DNA of 64,000 nucleotides from Pseudomonadota bacterium (GTDB lineage: Bacteria; Pseudomonadota; Gammaproteobacteria; Burkholderiales; Sulfuriferulaceae), in assembly GCA_021845925.1 (NCBI GenBank), contig JAJZUW010000005.1:66232-130231 (forward strand). The letters are read 5' to 3'. The notes beneath the pieces were generated by a model. That model saw only the letters and a program-made list of their open reading frames with translations, was not told the origin of the DNA and searched no databases. Position 1 is the first letter of the stretch; each line of letters opens with the position of its first letter. This document shows positions 46,351-51,856 of the stretch, piece after piece. A program made the translations under genes and the position numbers.

Positions 46351-46496
46351 ACGTGCCGGATCTGTGGATTCCGCGACTACGCGCGGAATGACGGTGCAAT
46401 TTTTTCATCCCGCCATTCTGCGCCTTCCATTCCCGTCATTCTGCGCCTTCCATCCCCGTCATTCTGCGCGGAGCGAAGCGGAGTCGCAGAATCCAT
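46351..46496. repeat. Palindromic repeat cluster (same family as other arrays)
   Basis: One 49-bp-type unit (GCCGGATCTGTGGATTCCGCG followed by an imperfect palindrome ending in GGAATGACG; 46351-46393) is followed by about three copies of a 24-base unit containing CATTCTGCGCCTTCCAT and then an inverted repeat, ATTCTGCG with CGCAGAAT. No gene is supported between 46264 and 46560. Confidence 0.82.
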
Positions 46497-46560: not shown

Positions 46561-47244
46561 CTAGCCGATCTGTTCCAGTTGTTCGGGCTGGTGCAGAATG
46601 ATATCCATGCCGTCAACCGAAATCAGTTGTTGCTGACTGAAGCGGGCCAGCAATCTGGAAAAGGTTTCCGGCCGGATGTCCAGCAGGTTGGCCACCGCCT
46701 GCTTGCTGGCTGGCAGGGTGGCCACTCTGCCGCGACGTTCCTGGCGTGACGGCAATCCCAGCAGAAAAATGGCCAGACGGCGTTCGCCCTGCTGCAGACT
46801 GATCCGGTCGATGTCGTTGATCAGGGTGTGCAGTTGTCGGCTCATGGATGCCAGCATGGCCATGGCTGCTGTTGGTCGCGTCAGCAGCAGGTTGCGAAAG
46901 GAGACGGAATCAAACGCGATCAGGCGGGAATCTTCCAGCGCATCGGCATAAACTGGATAAGCGCCCCCCATGAACATGACCGCTTCGGCAAACAGACGCT
47001 CGCGCTCCAGGATTTCGATGGTGTGTTCCTGGCCGCCTTCATTGAGCAGGTATAACCGCATCAGGCCAGACTTGAGCAGAAAAAAACGGTGGCCGGTCTC
47101 TCCCTTGCGGAACAGGAGCTCCCCGGCGGGCAAATCGATGCTGGCGGCTTTTTGCGCCAGCAGTTCCAGGGCATCCCGGTCCAGGCCGGAAAACAGCGGC
47201 AGCAGGCGGAAATCGCTGACTGACACAGGTCGAATGGAAGTCAT
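46561..47244 (-). CDS. Crp/Fnr-family transcription regulator, Dnr-like
   Basis: The 227-residue regulator has a cyclic-nucleotide-binding-fold sensor (LFSGLDRDALELLAQKAASI; GELLFRKGETGHRFFLLKSG) and a C-terminal helix-turn-helix (LPASKQAVANLLDIRPETFS, then RLLARF). The recognition helix ends ETFSRLL, as in FNR/DNR proteins that bind TTGAT-N4-ATCAA. The N-terminal cysteine cluster of FNR is absent, so an oxygen-sensitive Fe-S sensor is unlikely; a haem/NO sensor like DNR is the closest idea. ATG 47244 was preferred because GGAA sits 8 bases upstream. It is divergent from the operon at 47468, whose promoter has a matching box. Confidence 0.85.
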   Translation of the reverse strand: MTSIRPVSVSDFRLLPLFSGLDRDALELLAQKAASIDLPAGELLFRKGETGHRFFLLKSGLMRLYLLNEGGQEHTIEILERERLFAEAVMFMGGAYPVYADALEDSRLIAFDSVSFRNLLLTRPTAAMAMLASMSRQLHTLINDIDRISLQQGERRLAIFLLGLPSRQERRGRVATLPASKQAVANLLDIRPETFSRLLARFSQQQLISVDGMDIILHQPEQLEQIG

Positions 47245-47395
47245 GGGCATATTCCGGTTAACAGAGCGTTTACCAGCGAAACAGGGTTGAGAGCGACGCA
47301 TCCGGTGTCAGACACCGTTCAGACGCTGCATTCCGGCTTGTCTTGTGCTGGTTTTTGCGGATATTGCGCGGTTGGTCTGCGAATTTCGGGCAGTC

Positions 47396-47437
47396 TTGAT
47401 CCAGGTCAATGTCTGTGTTGTTTGGCAGGACTAACAT
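47396..47437 (+). promoter_or_regulatory. FNR/DNR-type box and -10 for the 47468 operon
   Basis: TTGAT-CCAG-GTCAA (47396-47409) matches TTGAT-N4-ATCAA with one mismatch. A -10-like TAACAT (47432-47437) places the transcription start near 47444, so the box centre lies at about -41.5, the classic position for activation by an FNR/DNR dimer. The recognition helix of the neighbouring regulator agrees. Confidence 0.72.
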
Positions 47438-47467
47438 GACTCCATCCACATCATCGGGAGAATGCAA

Positions 47468-47863
47468 ATGCACAAGCGAAACAGGTGGTTTGTAACGGCC
47501 GGTCTGGTGTATGGCTTGCTGGGTGGTGCAATTGCACTGGTCATGCTGGTCAGGCCTGGCTGGATACCGGGTAATGTACCACGATTGCATGGTCACATCA
47601 TGCTGCTGGGATTCATCCTGATGGAAATCTACGGTATTGGCCTGCATGTCCTGCCACGTTTTTCCGGTCAGTCGCTGTATTCGGAACGGATGGCCGACTG
47701 GCAGTTCTGGCTGGCCAACCTGGGGCTGCCAGTCATGGCCGCCGGCTGGCTGGCAACGGCCGACTGGTTGATCGTGCTTGGCGGCAGTCTTCAGTATGCC
47801 GCCATCCTGCTGTTTGGCATCAACGTTGCGATGACGGTCAAACCCAAGGGACCCTGGAGGTAA
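47468..47863 (+). CDS. 4-TM membrane protein with H...HxLPRFxG motif (module A)
   Basis: The 131-residue inner-membrane protein has four hydrophobic segments: about residues 7-29, 40-62, 77-95 and 98-118. Between and within helix 2 lie histidines H38 and H40 (RLHGHIMLLGFILMEIYG) and the motif HVLPRFSG (H62-xx... at its end), reminiscent of haem-ligand patterns in NnrS and in haem-copper oxidase subunit I, though I would not assign either family. The same module recurs fused to a thioredoxin-like domain at 48321. ATG 47468 follows GGGAG at 7 bases. First gene of the operon under the FNR/DNR box. Confidence 0.8.
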   Translation: MHKRNRWFVTAGLVYGLLGGAIALVMLVRPGWIPGNVPRLHGHIMLLGFILMEIYGIGLHVLPRFSGQSLYSERMADWQFWLANLGLPVMAAGWLATADWLIVLGGSLQYAAILLFGINVAMTVKPKGPWR

Positions 47864-47865
47864 TC

Positions 47866-48309
47866 ATGAGTGAATACCGCGGTTGTGAATTACCGGAAGA
47901 TCTGTTCTATGATCTGGACTACATCTGGGTACGTCCGGAAGAAGATGGCCTCTGGACGATCGGCCTGACTGATCCGTCCCAGACCATGGCTGGCAAGATC
48001 CAGTATGTGTGGATCAAGGAAGCTGGCGTGCGACGTCAGCGCAAGAAGCCTCTGGCCAGGATTGAATCCGGCAAATGGGCTGGAGGCATTCCGGCACCCT
48101 GTGATGGCGTGATTGTGGAGCGTAACGAACTGGTGCTGGCGCGGCCAGGGCTGATCAACATCGATCCGTATCACGATGCCTGGCTGGTGCGTTGGAAACC
48201 CGACGATCCCAAGGCCATCACAGAACTGGCGACTGGTGCGGAAGCCCAGAAGGCGCTGGCTGCCTGGATAGACAAGTATGGGGTCCAGTGTATGCGTTGT
48301 CAGGAGTGA
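47866..48309 (+). CDS. Free-standing lipoyl-carrier protein (GcvH-like)
   Basis: The 147-residue protein is related to glycine cleavage H protein and to lipoate-binding proteins. The lipoyl loop is recognisable: IESGKWAGGIPAPCDGVIVE, where the lysine of ESGK corresponds to the lipoylated lysine of the ESVK motif, and the later INIDPYHDAWLVRWKPDD parallels the H-protein end. The C-terminus adds CMRC (VQCMRCQE), a possible redox or metal pair. No gcvT or gcvP is near. It sits 2 bases after module A and 11 before the fusion gene, so the lipoyl arm probably works with the redox domain; that is inference. Confidence 0.83.
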   Translation: MSEYRGCELPEDLFYDLDYIWVRPEEDGLWTIGLTDPSQTMAGKIQYVWIKEAGVRRQRKKPLARIESGKWAGGIPAPCDGVIVERNELVLARPGLINIDPYHDAWLVRWKPDDPKAITELATGAEAQKALAAWIDKYGVQCMRCQE

Positions 48310-48320
48310 GGAGACAGACC

Positions 48321-49007
48321 ATGAAAGTCGAACTGCTGGTTTCGGAATGGTGCGGCAGTTGTCGTGAAGCCGAACGGGTGTGGCGTCAGGTGGCCACGGA
48401 ACGCGACATCGAATTCTCGGTGCTGGACATGGTTCAGCCGGAAGGGCGTGAGCTTGTCAGCCGGTTACGTCTTAAAACGGTGCCTGCGCTGGTCATCGAC
48501 GGCGAACTGCGTGGTGCCGGTGTGCAACCGCTTGGTCTGGCGCGTGAATGGGTGGCGGCAGCACCAGTGCGGCAACAGAAGAGCATCCAGCCACCGTCCA
48601 TGCAGTTGTCCCTGGACAACCGCCTGTTCATTCTGTCCGCGGTTGCCTATCTGATGGCGGGCGGACTTGGTCTGGTGCTCAATGGCAGCCTGCTGAGTGA
48701 CGGCCCGGCCCGGCCGGTGGCCCTGCATTTTGTCACGATCGGCTTTTTTCTCATGTTGCTGTTCGGTCTGGCGGCCCATATGTTGCCCCGGTTCACTGGC
48801 AATCCGATACGCGCTGGTTGGCCGGTTTGGTTGCAACTGGGTTGTGCGCACCTCGGCTTGTGGTTGTATGCAGGCGGGTTCTGGCTGGGCTTGCCCTGGC
48901 TGGTCGCAACCGGCGGAACAGCGGTCTGGCTGGCCTTGGCCCTGTTTGCATGGCGTATCTGGCCGGTGTTGTGGCCGGTCAGCGAGCCTGGTCAGCAGCC
49001 GCACTGA
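48321..49007 (+). CDS. Thioredoxin-like domain fused to a second 4-TM H...HxLPRFxG module (module B)
   Basis: The 228-residue protein begins with a thioredoxin/glutaredoxin-like domain (MKVELLVSEWCGSCREAERV) whose active site is CGSC (C11-C14), with cis-proline context TVPALVIDG. From about residue 95 it becomes a four-helix membrane module that aligns with module A: LHFVTIGFFLMLLFGLAAHM followed by LPRFTG, then matching LGL, GG and LF positions. The redox domain would face the cytoplasm if the first helix runs inward. ATG 48321 follows GGAG. The operon probably ends here; the GGTTGC-C-GCAACC palindrome at 49024-49036 has no T run. Confidence 0.82.
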   Translation: MKVELLVSEWCGSCREAERVWRQVATERDIEFSVLDMVQPEGRELVSRLRLKTVPALVIDGELRGAGVQPLGLAREWVAAAPVRQQKSIQPPSMQLSLDNRLFILSAVAYLMAGGLGLVLNGSLLSDGPARPVALHFVTIGFFLMLLFGLAAHMLPRFTGNPIRAGWPVWLQLGCAHLGLWLYAGGFWLGLPWLVATGGTAVWLALALFAWRIWPVLWPVSEPGQQPH

Positions 49008-51558: not shown

Positions 51559-51856
51559 GTCATTCCGCGCGCAGTCGCAAGGCACCGTCATTCCGCGCGC
51601 AGTCGCAAGGCACCGTCATTCCGCGCGCAGTCGCAAGGCACCGTCATTCCGCGCGCAGTCGCAAGGCACCGTCATTCCGCGCGCAGTCGCAAGGCACCGT
51701 CATTCCGCGCGCAGTCGCGGAATCCATGGAGTACCACCAATTGGCTGGATTCTGCGACTCCGCTTCGCTCCGCGCAGAATGACGAAGGGTTGGATGTTCC
51801 GTGCAGAATGATGCGATGAGGAGATATTCCGCGCGCAGTCGCGGAATCCATTTGAA
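51559..51856. repeat. Tandem repeat, 28 bp x 6, plus palindromic elements
   Basis: Six 28-base units, GTCATTCCGCGCGCAGTCGC plus AAGGCACC, begin at 51559, 51587, 51615, 51643, 51671 and 51699, the last running into GGAATCCA. Downstream lie the same family in single copies: GGATTCTGCG...CGCAGAATGACG (about 51748-51782) and ATTCCGCGCGCAGTCGCGGAAT (about 51824-51846). They fill the gap between uup and rne; no gene is supported between 51515 and 51952. Confidence 0.9.

Follow-up and report, generated by a model that had tools for sequence, protein, structure and literature searches.

The window, a stretch of 64,000 nucleotides from a Sulfuriferulaceae genome (contig JAJZUW010000005.1), contains a three-gene operon, P1-P2-P3, which is preceded by an FNR/DNR-type box and lies divergent from the gene of a Crp/Fnr-family regulator. 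This arrangement had been observed in an earlier note made from the sequence alone, and it is confirmed here. P2 is placed with the LbpA proteins, the lipoate carriers of the sHdr sulfur oxidation pathway, of which it appears to form a third class, here called LbpA3. P1 is a protein with four transmembrane helices and P3 is the fusion of a thioredoxin domain with a module of the same kind. We propose, with about even confidence, that the operon assists sHdr-LbpA sulfur oxidation as an accessory module, switched in the DNR/FNR manner, which protects or substitutes the sHdr carriers under nitric oxide (NO) or low oxygen. What can be read from sequence and points to this proposal is a conserved gene set, a conserved box, the kinship of P2 with LbpA together with its extra CxxC motif, co-occurrence with sHdr, and, in some genomes, neighbours of the kind that typically handle NO, oxygen or nitrate. 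The earlier note had interpreted the operon as a low-oxygen or NO redox system in which a lipoyl dithiol reduces thioredoxin and then a membrane protein, and this is partly supported. P2 is nearest to LbpA, which places the operon in the context of sHdr sulfur oxidation, a link that the note missed.

The lipoate carrier LbpA3 and its link to sHdr

P2 (47866-48309, + strand) had been described as a GcvH-like lipoyl protein. It does match the Pfam family GCV_H (110.7 bits for a cut-off of 22.2), but it falls below both NCBIfam GcvH cut-offs (103.8 of 117 and 74.4 of 115.85 bits) and its closest relatives are LbpA proteins; a related protein from another genome (L171:8269-8715), of the soluble type described below, exceeds the first of these cut-offs (122.1 of 117). 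Over the aligned parts, P2 is 43-46% identical to the two LbpAs of its own genome and 31% identical to the separate, typical GcvH which that genome also holds. In an unrooted tree of 99 rows, in which long branches are flagged, P2, LbpA1, LbpA2 and GcvH form one group each; the GcvH group has a support of 100/98, and P2 is joined with LbpA1, apart from GcvH, at 99/96. Another GcvH-like protein (L174:8173-8640 in G001) has a very long branch in this tree.

The LbpA hallmark is a lipoyl lysine with N-terminal and C-terminal cysteines that GcvH does not have, according to the accessible part of PMC6067878. Column counts were made after rows L102, L155 and L149 had been removed from the tree set. 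The lipoyl Lys70, Cys7 and both cysteines of the C-terminal motif C142-M-R-C145 are present in 39/39 P2 rows, one of which has a longer tail, so that a plain column count gives 38/39 for the CxxC. Cys7 and Cys142 occur in 0/12 GcvH rows, and the second cysteine of the CxxC, Cys145, in 0/22 LbpA1, 0/23 LbpA2 and 0/12 GcvH rows. LbpA3 thus shares with LbpA1 and LbpA2 (PMC6067878, PMC10332631 and PMC6382920, as far as these texts were available) the lipoyl lysine, the N- and C-terminal cysteines and the genomes in which they occur. It differs from them by its own clade, the extra C-terminal CxxC, a location that is usually away from the sHdr cluster (in the window genome, P2 and the cluster are on different contigs), the FNR/DNR box, the thioredoxin and, often, membrane partners. 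LbpA3 presumably bears lipoate.

The available parts of the same three papers name only LbpA1 and LbpA2 as carriers, and the published LbpA set was drawn by location in or near the hdr-like cluster. Neither a third LbpA class nor such an operon is mentioned in the parts seen of PMC1274295, PMC6067878, PMC10332631, PMC6382920, PMC9974485, PMC8945050 and PMC12423496. Literature text searches, whose coverage was partial and excluded supplements, returned none either, in line with the earlier note, to which no characterised system of this make-up was known; this does not establish absence from print.

The sHdr cluster of the window genome follows the published gene order with fitting domains: dsrE, Fe-S, HdrB-like, HdrA-like, two lbpA, radical SAM and lipoate ligase genes; part of these names is backed by domains, the others follow from gene order. 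Co-occurrence was measured in two sets. In an even sample of the class (369 genomes), P1 is found in 12 genomes, sHdrA in 22 and both in 11, that is, sHdrA is present in 11/12 P1 genomes compared to 11/357 others, and the single P1 genome without an sHdrA match is 75% complete. In a set of 100 relatives, with thresholds of E below 1e-40 for P1 and 1e-60 for sHdrA, P1 is found in 23 genomes, sHdrA in 25 and both in 19 (19/23 P1 genomes compared to 6/77 others). At E 0.001 the P1 matches would rise to 49/100, and the extra ones are mostly weak, many being frames of about 490 residues that are probably full oxidases; only matches below 1e-40 were therefore counted. The relatives with P1 and no sHdrA are G002 (91% complete), G015 (77%) and two complete Sulfuricella-type genomes. 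LbpA3 is found beside P1 in 11/12 P1 genomes of the class sample. It is also present in 7/11 sHdr genomes without P1, which makes 17/22 sHdr genomes in total; the search for LbpA3 apart from P1 covered 25 genomes.

A named collection yielded 52 P1 loci in 51 genomes, one of which has two copies. The records include Sulfuriferula, Sulfuricella, Thiobacillus, Sideroxydans and Thioalkalivibrio, the rest being mostly proteobacterial metagenome-assembled genomes. Two loci that look broken or frame-shifted (L102 and L079) were scored as found. The earlier note had proposed to look for co-occurrence of the three proteins, which proved to be wide, P3 being labelled in 50 and P2 in 37 of the 52 loci, without the full trio being obligatory, as P1-P3 occurs without P2 and P2 without P1. 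Where LbpA3 is full, the thioredoxin is always present (37/37, one frame-broken), and it is missing only where full LbpA3 is missing; 5/12 P3 loci without LbpA3 are without thioredoxin, possibly from one event. It therefore appears that P1 goes with the membrane half of P3, and LbpA3 mostly with the thioredoxin.

Two loci (L172:7441-11611 and L173:7383-11571) show a cluster of the type dsrE-lbpA2-radical SAM-lipoate ligase. They come from Sulfuricella-type genomes that gave no sHdrA match at E 1e-60, and which thus have an LbpA2 carrier without sHdrA.

Regulator, box and neighbouring genes

The regulator (P0003, 46561-47244, - strand) exceeds the Pfam cut-offs for cNMP_binding and HTH_Crp_2. 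Its best matches in the PDB are two DNR entries (3dkw, E 1.8e-32), which we take to be P. aeruginosa DNR; the next other protein is at 1e-17. The recognition helix is ETFSR, in which E..SR presumably indicates an FNR-type reading. The NCBIfam models that score highest are FtrB, then FNR, and both are below their own cut-offs; "DNR-like" is therefore a judgement based on sequence. In keeping with a DNR regulator, the closest solved relative is DNR, and the FNR cysteines are absent, as the earlier note had seen. The protein has no cysteine at all. A regulator homologue is labelled in 26/52 P1 loci.

The box, TTGATCCAGGTCAA (47396-47409, + strand), matches TTGAT-N4-ATCAA at 9 of 10 positions. A TAACAT at 47432-47437, read by eye, would put it near position -41.5 of the putative promoter, where the earlier note had placed it. 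A box with at least 9/10 matches is found in 41/62 P1 upstream regions, for 0.27 expected from shuffles that preserved single-base content only. These regions count the window, where the box was first sighted, and three pairs that represent one genome in two collections; in the 59 distinct regions, the number is 39. The box lies 59-85 bases upstream of the start in 39 of the 41 cases and at 171 and 247 bases in the other two. It is also kept in Thioalkalivibrio, where the divergent gene encodes a haemerythrin rather than the regulator.

LbpA3 occurs in two architectures. The membrane type is that of the window, P1-LbpA3-(thioredoxin-four-helix module), and the soluble type is found in seven LbpA3 genomes that are devoid of P1. 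In the latter, the stretches around LbpA3 contain a DNR-like regulator in 5/7 genomes, a haemerythrin in 5/7, a stand-alone thioredoxin in 5/7 and a globin in 4/7, and by eye, with likely starts, a box of at least 9/10 stands beside one of those genes in 7/7. There are 15 boxes in about 106 kb of these seven loci, compared to 9 in 362 kb of sHdr loci. In 22 control loci (21 sHdr and 1 GcvH), no DNR-like, haemerythrin, globin or NnrS match was obtained.

The earlier note also suggested a search for nearby genes of NO and nitrogen oxide metabolism. Haemerythrins, globins, NnrS, narG and narK are indeed found near some copies, whereas a nitrite reductase is found in a minority of P1 genomes that does not include that of the window (see below). 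In G125, LbpA3 lies between a globin and an sHdrB1 match, and a Fer2-reductase and a DNR-like regulator also adjoin it. In G270, a NarX-like kinase is about 0.2 kb from LbpA3, followed by a NarK-like transporter and narG, and in G009 a NarK-like gene lies about 1.3 kb away from one operon copy, narG coming after it. NnrS is found in G254 at 2.6 kb from P1, and in G064 at about 7 kb from the operon. No nir/nor/nos cluster was noticed at the window site, where the neighbours were not annotated exhaustively. The nnrS gene belongs to DNR/NsrR regulons according to the part of PMC1274295 that was available. The operon resembles the DNR regulon of denitrifiers described there by its DNR-like regulator, its box and the NO-type neighbours of some genomes; it differs in that it includes a lipoate carrier akin to those of sulfur oxidation, and nir genes are often not found.

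The membrane modules P1 and P3

P1 is encoded at 47462-47863 (+ strand), and 47468 is the more likely start because Met3 is invariant in the 43-row P1 alignment. P3 (48321-49007, + strand) consists of a CGSC thioredoxin domain (residues 1-83) and a four-helix module (residues 97-219). The earlier note held that the membrane module occurs twice, once alone and once fused to thioredoxin, and profile comparison bears this out: hhalign aligns P1 with the membrane half of P3 over 121 columns (probability 99, E 2.1e-18), which makes the two homologous. The motif that the note had recognised is present in both proteins, with its first spacing corrected from H-x5 to H-x4, as H-x4-GF-x-LM-x3-G-x3-H-x-LPRF-x-G. 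The thioredoxin domain, likewise recognised before, exceeds the cut-off of Thioredoxin_3 (PF13192, 31.9 bits for 24.8), and C11 and C14 of the CGSC are invariant in 36/36 full-length P3 rows, an alignment that left out the P3 copies without thioredoxin domain that exist. By the positive-inside pattern, read by eye, this domain is on the cytosolic side. The invariant histidines are H43, H45 (in H43-x-H45) and H62 in the 43 P1 rows, and H136 and H153 in the 36 P3 rows.

The histidines had suggested a metal or haem, and the modules do appear to be kin to haem proteins, to the haem-copper oxidases and, weakly, to NnrS. P1 matches Pfam COX1 with E 4.3e-7 and 29.6 bits, below the cut-off of 34.8, and has 4 helices, not 12. 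Searched against the PDB, the P1 profile matches a single chain, which belongs to a cbb3 oxidase; the match (E 0.0039) is made up of four stretches. The best (i-Evalue 0.028) is in helix X, where HGH of P1 falls on HVH and H62 on a histidine; the other three, in other repeats, are not significant singly (i-Evalue 190-560). The membrane half of P3 weakly matches the last third of NnrS (PF05940, E 3.4e-4, 20.5 bits, below the cut-off of 28). Besides this score, its single repeat sets P3 apart from NnrS, a full copy of which is encoded separately in the window genome.

The AlphaFold 2 models have a pLDDT of 88.6 (P1) and 86.1 (P3). The P1 model superposes on residues 337-496 of ba3 oxidase (Z 12.7, 3.2 Å, 128 residues) and the membrane part of P3 on residues 339-496 (Z 12.6, 2.7 Å, 126 residues), a region that we take to be helices IX-XII. 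The top alignment of the P3 membrane part, with a cbb3 chain, has Z 13.0 and is split over residues 229-471 for 132 residues, which therefore do not make one contiguous repeat. The thioredoxin part of P3 reaches a Z of about 12 in structural alignment. Helical bundles may reach a Z of 13, and other four-helix proteins, microsomal glutathione transferase 2 and leukotriene C4 synthase, reach about 11 against P1; the weak sequence match is thus needed to support the oxidase repeat. Foldseek alone gave no match for P1 at E 0.001. Its two top rows for P3 are receptor structures with a TM score of 0.29 and were not used.

In these models, each module therefore looks like a single four-helix repeat of subunit I of the haem-copper oxidases (cbb3, ba3), on which it superposes; in P1 the H-x-H aligns with the helix X pair and a histidine precedes the LPR motif. 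The two proteins are unlike subunit I in having 4 rather than 12 transmembrane helices per chain and a thioredoxin fused in P3, and no CuB-type histidine set was recognised in them by eye. The conserved histidines of P1 and P3 may bind haem. Oxidase subunit I, with its threefold repeat, may have been built from such a unit, of which these stand-alone modules would be present-day examples.

Other small proteins of this kind were observed. A search of the phylum gave further single-repeat oxidase-like proteins of about 170-210 residues, which form a group distinct from P1/P3. At two loci outside the class of the window (L221:4918-6026 and L222:2156-3279), a COX1-type protein of 170 residues with an H-T-H exceeds the Pfam cut-off and is adjoined by a small cytochrome c that seems to have one membrane anchor, which gives a miniature oxidase- or NOR-like pair. 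G245 has one hybrid gene (L119:1465-1872), P1-like over residues 1-60 and P3-like over residues 61-135, with the fusion point at the LPRF motif and no LbpA3. It adjoins a haemerythrin-like frame and a DNR-like regulator, and has the appearance of a natural deletion that removed LbpA3 and thioredoxin. In G077, E1-type dehydrogenase subunits, recognised by eye, adjoin a weak P1-like frame with four helices (L055:5690-6052); a neighbour looks haemerythrin-like by eye, and the reference search did not confirm it as a haemerythrin.

Proposed mechanism and alternative explanations

We suggest that the appearance of NO or a fall in oxygen would lead the DNR-like regulator to switch the operon through the box. 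LbpA3 would be lipoylated by the LipS1-LipS2/sLpl(AB) machinery linked to sHdr; lipoate ligase and radical SAM genes adjoin sHdr in the window genome. Its lipoyl group, its C-terminal CMRC and the thioredoxin may form a dithiol relay, which would restore or replace the arms of LbpA1 and LbpA2, whose dihydrolipoyl thiols would be open to attack by reactive nitrogen species. The thioredoxin of the membrane type is tied to two single-repeat oxidase-like modules, the P1/P3 pair. These may hold haem b between their conserved histidines and may either accept electrons from the relay or bind NO, a function in which haemerythrins and globins may replace them in the soluble type. Of all steps, this role of the membrane pair, as electron outlet or as partner that binds NO, is the least certain.

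In the accessible parts of the literature, reactive nitrogen species are described as modifying dihydrolipoyl thiols and blocking lipoic-arm enzymes, and thioredoxin as able to strip S-nitroso groups (PMC9974485), while the sHdr carriers are proposed to go through a dihydrolipoyl state (PMC6067878). A carrier that comes with a dedicated thioredoxin and an FNR/DNR box is therefore consistent with a system that repairs or substitutes the sHdr lipoate relay when NO is present or oxygen is low. It also suggests that the lipoate arm may be a weak point of sHdr under nitrosative stress or low oxygen, which is repaired or replaced. Some thiol peroxidases are fed by lipoylated proteins (PMC8945050, in the part that was seen). 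In these systems (Ohr/OsmC, AhpD), as in the operon, a lipoylated protein would be the electron source of a thiol protein in a defence against oxidants; unlike the operon, they are soluble, of other folds and with no known link to sulfur oxidation.

A further, speculative version, which we regard as having a small chance of being right, is that P1 and P3, as separate single-repeat chains, make an oxidase-like haem core to which the dithiols of lipoyl-LbpA3 and thioredoxin supply electrons from the cytosol. By reducing or scavenging NO, this core would shield the lipoate-based oxidation of sulfur; it would be related to the haem-copper oxidase fold, with protein dithiols driving it.

Several observations weigh against the proposed accessory role. 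P1 is missing from 11/22 sHdr genomes and LbpA3 from 5/22. Conversely, P1-P3 is present in the two complete Sulfuricella-type genomes, which have neither sHdrA nor LbpA3, and in G050 and G094, which have sHdr and no LbpA3; the membrane pair can therefore do without the lipoyl protein. The P2 clade alone has a support of 86/68, and the tree program flags long branches. At the level of regulation, 26/52 P1 loci have no labelled regulator homologue, 21/62 upstream regions have no 9/10 box, the hybrid gene of G245 has none either (best 7/10), and the box is unable to separate low oxygen from NO. No match for nirS, nirK or narG was found in the window genome, and nirS or nirK was found in 8/19 P1 genomes tested (nirS and NnrS were searched in 26 genomes, nirK and narG in 32). 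A haemerythrin is not labelled in 38/52 P1 loci. The reference proteins of the neighbour count were drawn from the test loci, which tilts the comparison with the control loci in favour of the proposal.

The best surviving alternative, which we nevertheless consider rather unlikely, is that P1/P3 is a di-haem b quinone reductase, through which electrons would pass from dihydrolipoyl-LbpA3 to the thioredoxin domain and the quinone pool to serve sHdr at low oxygen. The four-helix modules with histidines near both membrane faces, the oxidase kinship, the cytosolic thioredoxin and the FNR-type box are consistent with such an outlet; however, the modules gave no evidence of a quinone site, and the haemerythrin, globin and DNR-like neighbours indicate NO as much as respiration.

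It is unlikely that LbpA3 simply replaces LbpA1 as the sulfur or electron carrier of sHdr in anoxic or denitrifying growth, with sulfane sulfur carried by CMRC and a side role for P1/P3. The tree joins LbpA3 with LbpA1, the C-terminal cysteine of LbpA is compared with SoxY in the part of PMC6067878 that was available, and genes of nitrate respiration adjoin LbpA3 in G270. A rhodanese is found in 10/52 P1 loci, all from Thioalkalivibrio, but also in 9/22 control loci. Against such a replacement, in the genomes where both were located, LbpA3 and the sHdr cluster lie apart, with G125 as the exception, and most loci without P1 have a thioredoxin, haemerythrin or globin with LbpA3.

A sensor, in which the membrane module would detect NO or oxygen through haem and signal through the thiols of thioredoxin and LbpA3, would agree with the small paired modules, their frequent position beside a regulator and the fact that no CuB-type ligands were recognised; it is improbable, as there is no output domain and the DNR-like regulator would sense NO already. 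That P2 is an ordinary GcvH duplicate with unrelated neighbours, as its Pfam match could suggest, deserves hardly any credence, being contradicted by the NCBIfam cut-offs, the cysteines, the tree, the conserved operon and the other typical GcvH of the genome.

A role in anti-phage defence was rejected, as PADLOC gave no match at E 0.01. Elsewhere in the window, a perfect tandem repeat of 28 bases (5.7 copies) is present at 51559-51718, and a related-looking one of 23 bases at 46408-46469; both contain GTCATTC.

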